From a virus: a stretch of 35,001 nt of DNA. The position numbers and the translations under genes are program-made. Where the stretch lies: the IMG/VR virus record IMGVR_UViG_3300037961_001127, positions 1 through 35,001 of that record; one strand, given 5' to 3'. The notes under the pieces were generated by a model. That model made no database searches. It was not told the origin of the DNA and saw only the letters and a list, made by a program, of their open reading frames with translations. Below, in pieces: positions 29,875 through 35,001 of the stretch. Each line of letters starts with the position of its first letter. The stretch's first letter is position 1.

Positions 29875-30192
29875 TCACCCAATAATAAGGTAGGCGAATT
29901 CTTGTGTGTGGCCGTGGTTATTGTGTCCAATCTTCATCGTCCCATCAGTGCTGGTCGATTTGATGTATGGCTGAAAGTGTGACGGTGAGTGGTCAATCGA
30001 TGTGAAAAACACTACGCTCTCTTTTGAAAAGCGCGGGTCGGTATGCGTCGTCTCAGTCACGTTGGCAGCAAGCGTCACATAATCCCAGCTATTCAAGCCG
30101 CCGTTGATCGCTCGATTTAAAACCTCTGCGATTTCGCGGGTGGTTGCGATAATAGGGTTTAGAATACGGAAATTCGTCTTACGCGCCGTCAT
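29875..30192 (-). CDS. Small tail-region protein
   Basis: The 105-residue product (MTARKTNFRILNPIIATTRE, IAEVLNRAINGGLNSWDYVT, then LAANVTETTHTDPRFSKESV) has a helix-then-strand profile. The segment VVFFTSIDHSPSHFQPYIKS with HNNHGHTQEFAYLIIG is rich in His and aromatic residues. It resembles short virion proteins of marine podoviruses, function unknown. It starts at an ATGA overlap with the gp10-like hub gene. Confidence 0.68.
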   Translation of the reverse strand: MTARKTNFRILNPIIATTREIAEVLNRAINGGLNSWDYVTLAANVTETTHTDPRFSKESVVFFTSIDHSPSHFQPYIKSTSTDGTMKIGHNNHGHTQEFAYLIIG

Positions 30193-31646
30193 CGCCTGCC
30201 GATGTCCCTCGCCTCAACCTCGATGCCGAGTGCCTTGTCCCAGTTGCCAGTAAACTTGACGCGCGCGCGGTGATAACGGCCCTGTGCCCGAAACGGCGAA
30301 AACGCCGAGGAGTTAACTGCCACGTCGCTGGTAAACGTCGGTGTCTCAGACTGCGTCTCGCGTGTGCCGACAGCAACCGTCACTGTGCCGGCCTCGTAAT
30401 ACGGATATATGCGCGTCACAATCGAGTGCTTTCCTGTGGACAGCGGTGCCTCGGCTGTCTCAATCGTGCCGGCCAGCGCTGATCCGGTAAAACTATAAAT
30501 TTTGTTCCCGTATGCGCCTCCGAAGAAATACTGACCGCCTTTGTAAAAGCGGCTGTCTAGCTGAATACTGAGGCCATCAACCGTCGCAGACAGGTTGTCC
30601 AGCGCGTCAACTGTATATCCGGCCGAGAACATAGGAGCGAGAAGGTCTGCCTCAACCTCTGCAACCGACCATTTATTCAACGTGTAGTTGTAGATCAGGA
30701 TTTTATCTGGCTGCCCTGACGGCGACGCCGTGGATGTGTACGACCACATCGCGACTTCGTTCAGCGGGTCAACCGCCGCAGACATGCGTTCATCATAATT
30801 ACTGTCGAAATCGTTTAGGAAAAATTCATTTATGCGCTCGCTTCCGATGGGCGTGATGCGCTGACCGTCGAAGGAATAGAAGCCATCACTGGACAGGAAA
30901 AAGACAAGGTTCCCAGCATTACAAACAGAGTTTTTAAAGTTACACCCGCGCTCAGACACAACTTTGTCAAACTGCCAGATCAACGGCGGGCCAGTGTATG
31001 TGGCGCGGAAAATGGCGCGCTCGGTCAGAACCGTCGCATATTCGCCGCCGACTAAGCCGGTAATCTCGCCGCTGTCGGGCAGGTCTTGGAAGTCAGACTG
31101 ATCCGTTCCAACGGTCCATCCATCTATATCGTTAAAGGCTGACCACTGGACGCGGTAGGGGATGCGGCCCGTACCGCTGTCCACGTTAGCTATCCAGACG
31201 AAGTCTCTAACAGCCGCGATAAAGTCGGCCTTCGGAGGCGAGCCGGCTAAGTCTGCAAATGCAGAGCTTGTGCCTAGTTGGAAAAACTGAAGCTCTTCGC
31301 CTATTCCGCCTGCGGCGATAATGTAATCGCCGAATTGAATAAACCTCCAGCGCTCTCCGCCGGTCAGGTCATAGCCGCCCGTCTTCTTAATGTCGTCGAG
31401 ATTGTTTGTGGACGTATTGTGCTGATAGAGCTTCGCGTCGTCACCGGCAAATAACTTGTTATTGCCAGCGCTGTCCTTGGCCGCAAAAATGCCGCGAAGG
31501 GTTCCAGAGGCCGCGTTTGAGTACGGCACAAAACTATTCATTGAGTGATAGCCCACAGCGCTCGGCATGACATTCGTCGCGACAGTTACGCCGGGGTTTA
31601 AGATGTCGGCCTGATCAGGCAGCCATTCGCCAAACTGTTGTATCAC
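30189..31646 (-). CDS. Tail hub/DNA-stabilisation protein (P22 gp10-like)
   Basis: The start is GTG 31646 (485 residues): it overlaps the upstream stop as GTGA and has TGGAGG 5 nt before it, better than the TTG four codons earlier. The protein is a string of beta-hairpins (WRFIQFGDYIIAAGGIG, DFVWIANVD, LVFFLSSDGFYSFDG, EVAMWSYTSTA, ILIYNYTLNKWSVAEVE) as in the beta-propeller-like P22 gp10 family. Such hubs sit under the adaptor and hold fibres or the needle. RVQWSAFNDIDGWTV is characteristic of this family. Confidence 0.8.
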   Translation of the reverse strand: MIQQFGEWLPDQADILNPGVTVATNVMPSAVGYHSMNSFVPYSNAASGTLRGIFAAKDSAGNNKLFAGDDAKLYQHNTSTNNLDDIKKTGGYDLTGGERWRFIQFGDYIIAAGGIGEELQFFQLGTSSAFADLAGSPPKADFIAAVRDFVWIANVDSGTGRIPYRVQWSAFNDIDGWTVGTDQSDFQDLPDSGEITGLVGGEYATVLTERAIFRATYTGPPLIWQFDKVVSERGCNFKNSVCNAGNLVFFLSSDGFYSFDGQRITPIGSERINEFFLNDFDSNYDERMSAAVDPLNEVAMWSYTSTASPSGQPDKILIYNYTLNKWSVAEVEADLLAPMFSAGYTVDALDNLSATVDGLSIQLDSRFYKGGQYFFGGAYGNKIYSFTGSALAGTIETAEAPLSTGKHSIVTRIYPYYEAGTVTVAVGTRETQSETPTFTSDVAVNSSAFSPFRAQGRYHRARVKFTGNWDKALGIEVEARDIGRR

Positions 31647-32236
31647 TGTGGCCTCCAACTTTCTGTGCCTTCAAGCACATTACCCCAAGTCTCGCCCCCT
31701 GACGAGACGGTCTGCCACGTCTCGCTGCCCTCTGCCTGCGTTGCCCACGCATCTGTGCCGTCAGCAATTTCGACCCACGCCTCTGTGCCGTCAACAATCT
31801 CAGTCCACGCATCGCCAAGAATGTTTGCCAGCGTTTCTTGTGTTACGCGGAACACAATGTCGCCGCTCATAACAAATACGGCGATTATCTCGCCGCTGGC
31901 GCTCGCTACCACCTCCACGCTGGCGTCCATACCGCGTATGCGAGAGAAGGCGTTCACGGCGCTAACAGACGCGGCTGCGGAGCCGTTTAGCAGCCTAATG
32001 CGGTCAGCGTCGGACGTTACCGTCACAGAGATAGATGCAGCGCCTGACATGCGTGCTATGAAGGCCGCAACCGCTGAAACAGACGCCGCGCCAGAAACAC
32101 TTGCATCGAACAAACGCAGGCGAATTGCTGCGCTGGTAGACGTTACCGCCGCATCGCCTGTGCCTGTGACGGTGCGCGCAATTCCTGCATTGTCGGCTGC
32201 GAAGGGCGTCTCAGAAAATGAAAAGCTGCCAAACAT
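31643..32236 (-). CDS. Repeat protein with Trp every tenth residue
   Basis: The 197-residue protein has two repeat systems. Residues 36-75 and 76-112 are two copies of a beta-like unit (IRLRLFDASVSGAASVSAVA and RIRLLNGSAAASVSAVNAFS). Residues 142-194 hold five full 10-residue units with Trp at 144, 154, 164, 174, 184 and 194 (DAWTEIVDGTEAWVEIADGT as example; pattern W-x-x-h-x-x-G-[TSG]-[ED]-x). No family is known to me. Its place before the gp10-like hub and a 23-nt gap after the next gene suggest a tail or host-contact protein. It overlaps the hub gene as GTGA. Confidence 0.75.
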   Translation of the reverse strand: MFGSFSFSETPFAADNAGIARTVTGTGDAAVTSTSAAIRLRLFDASVSGAASVSAVAAFIARMSGAASISVTVTSDADRIRLLNGSAAASVSAVNAFSRIRGMDASVEVVASASGEIIAVFVMSGDIVFRVTQETLANILGDAWTEIVDGTEAWVEIADGTDAWATQAEGSETWQTVSSGGETWGNVLEGTESWRPQ

Positions 32237-32259
32237 GATTTACTGAAACCTTGCTACAG

Positions 32260-32502
32260 TCACGATTTCCAGTATGTACGTCCGCTGGCTATCACAGAGT
32301 TGATGCGGGTCATGTCTTTACCGGCAGTTGTGTACCGGTCATCCAAAACTTCTGTTTCGAGGTACATCACCATACCGCCAACAGACTTCTTTTTCGTAGC
32401 GTCAGTTTCATTTTCGAGTTTCATCCCGCCGATTACATTTTCGATGCTATCGCAGGTGTGCAACAAGCGCAGGTAATCCCTGTCCAGTTCGTTTACAGCC
32501 AT
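32260..32502 (-). CDS. Small conserved tail-region protein
   Basis: The 80-residue product (MAVNELDRDYLRLLHTCDSI, ENVIGGMKLENETDATKKKS, VGGMVMYLETEVLDDRYTTA) has AGKDMTRINSVIASGRTYWK at the end. It is predicted to be helix-loop-helix and is conserved in marine phages next to fibre genes; function unknown. It could be a fibre-assembly or attachment helper. ATG 32502 is preceded by AAGGAGC, 3 nt after the fibre stop. Confidence 0.72.
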   Translation of the reverse strand: MAVNELDRDYLRLLHTCDSIENVIGGMKLENETDATKKKSVGGMVMYLETEVLDDRYTTAGKDMTRINSVIASGRTYWKS

Positions 32503-32505
32503 TTG

Positions 32506-35001
32506 TTAAGCTCCTTCTAGCGTGGCTACTCGCGCTTTTAGCGCAGTTATTTCGGCAGACAATTCTTGGATTGCCTTGACCAAAATCGGGTAGGTTTTCA
32601 TCGGATCGGCTTCAAGCCTTGCGGGATTTTCCCAACTAACAAGATGGGTGTAGTCTGCTGAAGCGTGATCTAGCTCAACATCTGCAAGCTCCTGTGCAAT
32701 AAAGCCAAGTTGCTTGCGGTCTCCCATCGTGCCGTCACGGCGGTTCCATGTAAAAGACACAGGCCGCAGATCGTTGATGAAACTCAAGCCATATTGAATG
32801 TCTTGGATGTTTGTCTTGTCACGCTCATCCGACAACGACGATATAGATGTGTCGTTGCAACGCAGGTTAGTGACTAATGCATCACCGAGCGTGATTTCAT
32901 CGCTTACAGAGGTTGAACTAGGCTCTGCGTTGTATCCAAGAAGGGTGTTGTTGTCTCCACCAATAGAGGTGGTCCCAGCCGAGCTGCCCACAACCGTGTT
33001 TTGATTAGAGAGGGTAATTCCTGTCCCGGCATTATCACCCACGCCAACATTGTCGTCTCCCGAACCGACGGCTCCCAAAGCTGAATTGCCTATTGCTGTG
33101 TTGTCGAATCCACTGCTCAGACCATCCAAAGTCTGATAACCAACGCCCGTATTGTCGCTACCAGTGCCAGCACCTTTTCCGGACTCTGCCCCTACAAAAG
33201 TATTGTTGTCTGATGTTGTAAACTGCTGTCCCGCCTCGTATCCGATGGCAACATTATAATCACCCGTAGTTATGTCCTCTAAAGCATAACTACCTACTGA
33301 AGTATTATAAGCTCCGCCGTTTAGACTATACGAAGCATTATAGCCAACGGCAGTATTATCACCTCCCGAGCCGCCTAGCCTTCCGGCCTGATTCCCGACG
33401 AACGTCAAGTTATCACCACCGTCTAGATCATAACCGGCTAGATATCCGATCAGGGTACAGTTGTCGGATTGTCCACTCTGACTGCCGCCAGCATATGCGC
33501 CTACGCTTGTGCCACCGGCATAGCCGTGCCTCGATGAGTATCCAACCGATACACCGTTGCTGGAATTATTGTAGTAAGTATCAGCATCCATCCCCACATA
33601 GACGCCATAATCACCCGTTCTTTGATAATCGCCTGCTCTCATTCCAACAGCAGTGGCCCCGTAGTTTCCGCCATTCGCGGCAGTGTTATACAAGGCTTGA
33701 TAACCTACGGCTGTACAATAAAAACCAGCCTCATAACCAGCGAAGTAACCTACCGCAGTGATGCCATCCGCAGACGATAGTGGCCCATATGCGGAACCAT
33801 AACCAAGCGCAGTGTTGTAGTCGTCCACCGTAACCGATGAATTCCCTAAAGCACCATAGCCCATTGCGACATTTCTGATTGAACCGCTACCTAATGCACT
33901 GCCCGTTGAATTGGTAGTAGTGTCAACATTTGAATTGATAATAGCTGTATTAGTAGAGTCAATGGCTGTGCCGCTGTCACCATTAACACCTGTTTCTGTA
34001 CGCAGCAACGCAACGTGACCATCGTACAAATCACCAACCGTGATCGTATTGTCGCGGGTGGGGTCTTCAATCGCCAGAGTGGTTTCAAAGTCGTCGTCTG
34101 TAGCACCCTCAAAGGTAAGACCAGTGGCAGTTATGCTGCTGCCACTACTGCCGCTGGCAAACGTAATCGTGTCGCTTGAGGCGTCTGTCGTTATGGTCAT
34201 GTTCGCGCCAGCAACGTAGGTCAGCGTGTCAGTGGCACTATCTGCCACGACATCGCTCTGACCACTGACCGCAATAGTCTTAAAGCTGTCGCTTGAACCG
34301 CCGCCTCCAGAACCATTAGCTGCTGCAGTGATGCGGCCTTGTGCATCCACCGTAATATCCGCTGAGGTATAGCTGCCAGCCGTGACTGCTGTGTTAGCCA
34401 GCTTGTCAGCATTGACTGCATCATCCGCAATCATACCCGTTGCCACTGTGCCGCTGTCACCCGTACCAACCAGAGTGCCCGTGTTTTCCGGCAGGGTCAG
34501 GACGGCAGAGGATGCCGCAGAGTGCGGTTGCGCTTGCAGGGTTTGAGCGTGAGCGTTGCTCGACTCGCAGTAGAACTTTACTTTCGATACTGCGCCTGTG
34601 CCCGTGCGGATGTCGATCTGACCGTCAGCTATAGAAACGCCGCCTGATGATCCATCACCGTCGAGGTTGACCACACCCGTACCGTTTGGCAGGATATCGA
34701 TGTTTCTGTTGCTGGTTGACACGATGTCGTGTGTAACAACATCAAGGTTCCCGCCTAGTTGGGGGCTGGAATCTTCCGATACATTGTCTAGCGCATTTGG
34801 GTTCGCGGTTGCGCTGGCAGCAATTCCGTCTAGCTTAGAACCATCTGTGGCAAGGTCGCGACCATCGATTGTGCCGGGGATGGAAATGTTGTCGCTGCCA
34901 TCAAGAAACACCGCCTTGTCGGCTGGCTGTGTGCAAAAAATGGTGCGGGTGCCAGAAGTCCAGTTGACCGCCGCATCGCTGTTGCTCGACTGCAAAATAG
35001 T
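32506..35001 (-). CDS. Tail fibre with C-terminal S74 intramolecular chaperone (main part)
   Basis: This is the rest of the fibre gene; the 5' end is at 308 after joining the repeat, for 900 residues in all. Order: virion-attachment end; DGRDLATDGSKLDGIAA; beta-rich shaft; a long block of Asn-Thr-x-x-Gly repeats (positions 32930-33880); then the S74 autoprotease/chaperone domain. There SLSDERDK has the catalytic Ser793 and Lys798 (Ser-x4-Lys), followed by LSFINDLRPVSFTWN, KQLGFIAQELADVELDH and a terminal coiled coil ELSAEITALKARVATLEGA. The domain drives trimer folding, then cuts itself off (108 residues). It determines host range. Confidence 0.92.
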   Translation of the reverse strand, partial: TILQSSNSDAAVNWTSGTRTIFCTQPADKAVFLDGSDNISIPGTIDGRDLATDGSKLDGIAASATANPNALDNVSEDSSPQLGGNLDVVTHDIVSTSNRNIDILPNGTGVVNLDGDGSSGGVSIADGQIDIRTGTGAVSKVKFYCESSNAHAQTLQAQPHSAASSAVLTLPENTGTLVGTGDSGTVATGMIADDAVNADKLANTAVTAGSYTSADITVDAQGRITAAANGSGGGGSSDSFKTIAVSGQSDVVADSATDTLTYVAGANMTITTDASSDTITFASGSSGSSITATGLTFEGATDDDFETTLAIEDPTRDNTITVGDLYDGHVALLRTETGVNGDSGTAIDSTNTAIINSNVDTTTNSTGSALGSGSIRNVAMGYGALGNSSVTVDDYNTALGYGSAYGPLSSADGITAVGYFAGYEAGFYCTAVGYQALYNTAANGGNYGATAVGMRAGDYQRTGDYGVYVGMDADTYYNNSSNGVSVGYSSRHGYAGGTSVGAYAGGSQSGQSDNCTLIGYLAGYDLDGGDNLTFVGNQAGRLGGSGGDNTAVGYNASYSLNGGAYNTSVGSYALEDITTGDYNVAIGYEAGQQFTTSDNNTFVGAESGKGAGTGSDNTGVGYQTLDGLSSGFDNTAIGNSALGAVGSGDDNVGVGDNAGTGITLSNQNTVVGSSAGTTSIGGDNNTLLGYNAEPSSTSVSDEITLGDALVTNLRCNDTSISSLSDERDKTNIQDIQYGLSFINDLRPVSFTWNRRDGTMGDRKQLGFIAQELADVELDHASADYTHLVSWENPARLEADPMKTYPILVKAIQELSAEITALKARVATLEGA
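32930..33880 (-). repeat. Degenerate repeat block in the fibre shaft
   Basis: About a dozen units of roughly 20-24 residues share [DN]NT-x-[VI]G-x-x-A-G, for example GDNTAVGYNASYSLNGGAYN and SDNTGVGYQTLDGLSSGFDN. At DNA level this appears as recurring ACCxxxxGTATTATC-type segments on the plus strand. The pattern is that of a trimeric beta-helical shaft. It is a likely site of unit gain or loss by recombination. Confidence 0.8.
34901..35001. repeat. Right copy of 101-bp terminal direct repeat
   Basis: Same 101 bases as 1-101 except A at 34999 in place of G. The change is silent in the fibre gene (Thr ACT versus ACC). It shows that the window closes on itself and that the two ends were read from slightly different DNA molecules, or that one end has a sequence error. 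Confidence 0.95.

Follow-up and report, generated by a model that had tools for sequence, protein, structure and literature searches.

Why does a viral protein encoded immediately upstream of a tail nozzle gene end in tryptophans placed at every tenth residue, and what restricts their number among its relatives? The question was raised by a 35,001-nucleotide stretch of viral DNA, here called the window (positions 1 to 35,001 of IMG/VR record IMGVR_UViG_3300037961_001127), in which the minus strand at 31643..32236 carries an open reading frame for a protein of 197 amino acids (ATG start, TGA stop), a reading that relatives keep. A plus-strand ORF across the same region (31638-32246, 202 aa, TTG) was rejected as an antisense shadow of the codon pattern of the Trp-array gene, the minus-strand reading being the one conserved in relatives. 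The protein contains six tryptophans in total, at residues 144, 154, 164, 174, 184 and 194, exactly where the first-pass annotation had placed them (its segment, residues 142-194, corresponds to 31655-31813), and these form a C-terminal array of five 10-residue steps from Trp144 to Trp194 (31655..31807, minus strand) that ends 3 residues before the stop codon and is conserved in 292 labelled loci. When the last 63 residues were shuffled 200,000 times, equal spacing of the six tryptophans arose once, and its analytic chance over the whole protein is ~5e-8. Units 1 and 2 are identical at 24/30 nt, other units at 10-18/30 nt, and TRF recognised only 2.3 copies in the array; apart from units 1 and 2, the units have thus diverged in DNA, which argues against fresh tandem duplication. 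The initially proposed unit formula, W-x-x-h-x-x-G-[TSG]-[ED]-x, describes units 1-5 of the window if "h" is read loosely (unit 3 has Gln) but does not extend to the family, where the glycine at position 7 is found in just 22% and the true invariant is the tryptophan.

The remainder of the protein comprises an N-terminal module of the FG..F(S)..PF type, MFGSFSFSETPF (32201..32236, minus strand), found in many relatives (L002, L022, L075, L118 and L134 among them), and a beta-rich region of ~20-25-aa repeats (31817..32173, minus strand), delineated from relatives and from strands predicted by AlphaFold2 over residues ~21-110 with pLDDT of about 56-70. The copy number of the beta-rich repeat varies among relatives, with proteins of 377-406 aa compared with 197 aa in the window.

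The gene that follows, at 30189..31646 on the same strand, encodes a nozzle of the P22 gp10 or tubeB-like type (phrog_3287, E=7e-80; PDB nozzles 8zkk, 8zkm and 9nwi, with the solved nozzles 8zkk and 8zkm matching at E about 1e-21). The mechanically called ORF begins at TTG 31658; judging from the sequence, the start is likely the GTG at 31646, which overlaps the stop of the Trp-array gene as GTGA. The codons of Trp194 and Arg195 supply a GGAGG Shine-Dalgarno-like sequence (31652..31656, minus strand) 5 nt before this GTG and, given this arrangement and the overlap, the two genes are probably coupled in translation. On the other side of the Trp-array gene, and also on the minus strand, lie a gene for an 80-aa protein (32260..32502), for which PHROGs and Pfam returned no family, and a tail fibre gene (32506..35001) whose 5' end is beyond the window and whose product carries a C-terminal Peptidase_S74 chaperone (PF13884, E=8e-15; PHROGs tail and virion structural families). 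After the nozzle gene, a 105-aa protein is encoded at 29875-30192 (minus strand), without a family match.

We defined a family of proteins with C-terminal tryptophans at 10-residue steps, the last of them 1-12 residues from the end, whose genes lie upstream of a gp10 or nozzle-like gene and share its strand, and whose arrays contain 2, 3, 4 or 6 units; the window protein has the array, the position next to the nozzle and a unit number of six. The family architecture consists of a short N-terminal module, beta-rich repeats of ~20-25 aa and the Trp array, which is at the extreme C-terminus in all relatives, both in IMG/VR (40-100% identity) and in phage records (27-36%). The period is kept in relatives down to ~20% identity, and a pattern scan that asked only for six TGG codons spaced 30 bases apart recovered 52 clean members with very different N-termini. 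In an alignment of 41 sequences, Trp144, 154, 164 and 194 are invariant and Trp174 and 184 are at least 90% conserved, and among 80 six-unit members the six tryptophans are the sole invariant columns. The family consensus unit is W-T-P/A-V/I-S-D/A-G/T-S-E-T, and tryptophan is scarce beyond the arrays (31 in ~11,000 residues). The expectation that homologues would conserve the period is thus borne out to an extreme degree, with the tryptophans invariant while most other columns drift.

The statement of the first-pass annotation that no phage family with this repeat was known also held: single-protein and profile searches of PHROGs, Pfam and the PDB yielded no family for the protein and no described match, the PDB hits to Kelch designs and to 9lc0 being repeat-driven or weak. 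No description of the array was found in the literature searched, a search outside which most subscription papers fell. Among the matches listed in a scan of bacterial genomes for the WT-type array pattern, only unrelated or out-of-frame repeats were found, and no array was located near nozzles in alphaproteobacterial genomes. Four actinobacterial genome contigs (L154, L157, L201 and L247) encode unrelated proteins with pentapeptide Trp repeats of the W-T-G-S-T type near the C-terminus. Public records that belong to the family by array, position and architecture, namely UOF77505/UOF77096, Venkman gp51 (QLF88126), phiM5_18 (ARV77520), OH p46 (QIG66102) and Octadecabacter DB virus 2 gp11 (URC15513), are annotated only as hypothetical or misleadingly, with the array unmentioned in the annotation. 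Misleading labels encountered were ribonuclease E (URC15513; gp11 of L704, MW805364), "serine-rich adhesin" (UOF77505/UOF77096; L002 and L003) and E3 ubiquitin-protein ligase (gp51 of L256). The arrays of phiM5, Venkman and Ochrobactrum phage OH have four units each, and that of Octadecabacter DB virus 2 has six.

Structure prediction did not resolve the array into a fold. An AlphaFold2 monomer model of the whole protein (41 sequences) has beta strands to residue ~134, with pLDDT up to about 70, and represents the array as coil; a second monomer model, of the array with the 42 preceding residues (80 sequences), reaches pLDDT 66-77 over the first units, with a pTM of 0.17 and no secondary structure. 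A Foldseek search with the low-confidence model returned nothing. The stacked beta-hairpin or solenoid with a Trp ladder that was suggested at first is not recovered, as neither monomer run places strands in the array, although an oligomeric or bound fold is still compatible with these models, in which an extended chain that would fold on a partner fits better than a solenoid. The first-pass annotation had named predicted disorder combined with loss of the period in homologues as the outcome that would count against it; no fold is predicted, but conservation is extreme.

A nozzle homologue lies downstream of the array gene in 51/67 first-round loci, most of the others running off the contig, and the array gene, upstream of the nozzle gene, often overlaps it. 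Each phage locus has one array gene, with the single exception of L423, where two overlapping ORFs (L423:3801-4280) end in a four-unit array and contain a six-unit array, respectively, representing either a recombination intermediate or an assembly artefact. In related phages that lack the array, the gene immediately before the nozzle is that of the adaptor or of another tail protein. A nozzle without an array, as in LUZ24 and many related phages, shows that the array is not essential to nozzle function.

The N-terminal modules often correspond to the nozzle. Group A nozzles start with FGEWLPDQP and contain a motif like TLEQLDSLSGSIDDLPASLDS (LD), and group B nozzles contain GRWRD..LVRW and the motif GYGxGxYG (YG). 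The LD motif opens 66/167 Trp proteins and occurs in 92/167 nozzles of group A, as opposed to 0/65 in group B, whereas the YG motif opens 46/65 Trp proteins and occurs in 55/65 nozzles of group B, with 0/167 in group A; the LD regular expression had zero matches in shuffled sequence. About half of the family shares a module (LD or YG) with the nozzle, a common feature that is not strictly defining. The window protein lacks both and has the FG..FS..PF module, which was looked for in nozzles and not found there; the LD motif of the window, LDNLSATVDGLSIQLDS (30552..30602, minus strand), is confined to its nozzle, in a segment with which many group A Trp-array proteins begin. The arrays of L433-L439 even have the LD module inserted within them. 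L610, L631 and L644 have an additional 16-20 aa separating units 4 and 5; the insert of L631 and L644, YYV..YWxEGY, resembles the N-terminus of other members (L046 and L073), so that modules appear to shuffle between the N-terminus and the array. The contact with a gp10-like hub that had been entertained at the outset thus gains ground as a putative link, for which synteny and the match between N-terminal modules and nozzle group are strong indications.

To keep bias out of the unit count, loci were sampled by nozzle and not by tryptophan (IMG/VR nozzle homologues, best 80 per query); Tyr substitutions, odd spacings and insertions were resolved by rule and by eye before counting. The 292 nozzle-seeded loci contain arrays of six (147), four (113), three (25) or two (7) units, and none of the 292 has five units or more than six. 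Seven further cultured or assembled phage records have 4, 6, 3, 6, 6, 4 and 4 units. Apparent exceptions dissolved: L552 and L539 have six units on inspection (a Tyr in unit 1 and a 13-residue first step, respectively), the "five" of L324 and the "seven" of L002 are spurious Tyr extensions, and the five-unit candidate in L671 is a gene truncated by the contig end. When 2.9 million viral contigs were scanned for five units in one context (G-[DE]-x-W start, four residues and a stop), no complete case was found, the matches being six-unit arrays, unrelated repeats and one gene cut by a contig end. Calibrated on the nozzle sample, the matching four-unit pattern fits 35/101 four-unit arrays and the five-unit pattern fits 2/136 six-unit arrays, so that many hits would be expected if five-unit arrays were as frequent as four-unit ones.

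A FastTree phylogeny of the nozzle requires a minimum of 65 changes in array size, 43 of which exchange six units and four; recombination may move modules as well, without affecting the absence of five. Phages whose nozzles are 97-98% identical can differ cleanly by two units, and a one-unit difference, 4 vs 3, occurs at 98.6% nozzle identity. Within six-unit arrays, units are more similar at lag 2 than at lag 1 (mean 14.2 vs 12.3), a 20-residue, two-unit super-period, which warns that pairs of units may matter instead of a 12-site ring and that the pattern may come in part from duplication in pairs; a pure rule of pairs is ruled out by clean three-unit arrays. Arrays also tolerate inserts of 16-33 aa between units.

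Twelve is divisible by each of the sizes observed (2, 3, 4 and 6) and not by 5. In podophage tails, according to the passages of PMC6702177 and PMC9509320 considered here, the portal and adaptor rings are dodecameric and the nozzle is hexameric, and fibres sit either on the nozzle or where it meets the adaptor. We tentatively favor, as quite plausible, the explanation that the array is a docking tail whose unit number divides a 12-fold ring. The protein would be a fibre-like tail component of the virion in short-tailed phages of the P22/LUZ24 type, its N-terminal module and beta repeats forming an extended appendage and its C-terminal tail a string of 10-residue docking units with one tryptophan each. 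The array would stay an extended chain up to the point at which its Trp side chains become locked in equivalent ring sites on the nozzle or at the adaptor-nozzle junction. If the ring is 12-fold (or 2 x 6-fold), the unit number must divide 12, and 12/n chains would fill the ring: two for n=6, three for n=4, four for n=3 and six for n=2. We infer that docking to 12 sites is the simplest mechanism for the period, the C-terminal position, the nozzle linkage and the missing five. Speaking against it are the lower frequency of sizes 2 and 3 compared with 4 and 6, together with the two-unit super-period; the phages that have a nozzle and no array; and the record of Sinorhizobium phage phiM5, which lacks, for phiM5_18, the particle-proteome detection mark that its neighbours have. 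The missing mark could mean that the protein is present in few copies or is not part of the virion.

Known appendages offer partial parallels. The P22 tail needle gp26, a trimeric coiled coil encoded after gp10, is likewise an extended protein at the hub encoded near gp10, but the Trp-array gene precedes the nozzle and its product is beta-rich; a gp26-like needle was rejected, the AlphaFold2 model containing beta and coil with no helix and Pfam and PHROGs giving no match. LUZ24 gp57, a tail collar fibre encoded directly upstream of nozzle gp56, occupies the same position between adaptor and nozzle but lacks the Trp array and has another N-terminal sequence. The short tail fibres gp16 of SU10, on nozzle gp17 (PMC9509320), and the T7 fibres, at the adaptor-nozzle junction (PMC6702177), are elongated beta-rich appendages encoded beside a hexameric nozzle; they differ in that the portions of these papers considered do not mention an array of Trp units, and SU10 has six trimers per virion (PMC9509320, same portions), compared with the 2, 3, 4 or 6 chains that unit counts suggest here.

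Among other explanations, it is rather unlikely that the array forms a self-contained oligomeric beta structure, in which the units would be strands or hairpins of a multi-chain closed barrel or prism (12 strands in total, or unit pairs) with the tryptophans in its core, at a fibre tip or collar. The alternation of Thr and Val around Trp, the 20-residue hairpin pairs suggested by the lag-2 similarity and the dominance of sizes 4 and 6 are consistent with such a fold, but the AlphaFold2 monomer models show no strands in the array, clean three-unit arrays arise repeatedly, the one-unit 4/3 difference exists and inserts as long as 33 aa are accommodated between units. An improbable account attributes the missing five to mutation, with duplication or deletion of two or three units reaching 2, 3, 4 and 6 and not 5. 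The super-period and the prevalence of the 6 to 4 change fit it, yet one-unit changes occur (4/3 and 3/2), three units plus a pair would give five, and not one of the many size changes lands on that number. The ladder for receptor or glycan binding at a fibre tip, as first read, is highly doubtful: tail fibre genes adjoin, and tryptophans at protein surfaces often stack on sugars, but a receptor surface should diversify, whereas many phage lineages show almost no variation in Trp count or C-terminal position and the N-terminal modules track the nozzle; Pfam gave no significant CBM or lectin match, the one insignificant hit being in the neighbouring 105-aa protein. Equally hard to credit is an assembly factor or intramolecular chaperone that aids fibre or nozzle oligomerisation and may not stay in the mature virion; that phiM5_18 is unflagged in the particle proteome and that the gene is coupled to the nozzle would suit it, but variable-length beta repeats look structural and the exclusion of five units would be left unexplained.

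Returning to the docking tail, it is possible that the array acts as a symmetry counter, such that 2, 3, 4 or 6 fibre copies close a 12-site tail ring and the number of appendages shifts by gain or loss of units, never via five. Tail appendage proteins are common, but a forbidden number in a repeat array is unusual. If this explanation is true, the array would be a sequence-level readout of the appendage copies per virion and a natural case in which an array of linear motifs is fitted to a ring's rotational symmetry. The family itself is a widespread and misannotated one of aquatic podoviruses, tied to the nozzle that gates DNA ejection.
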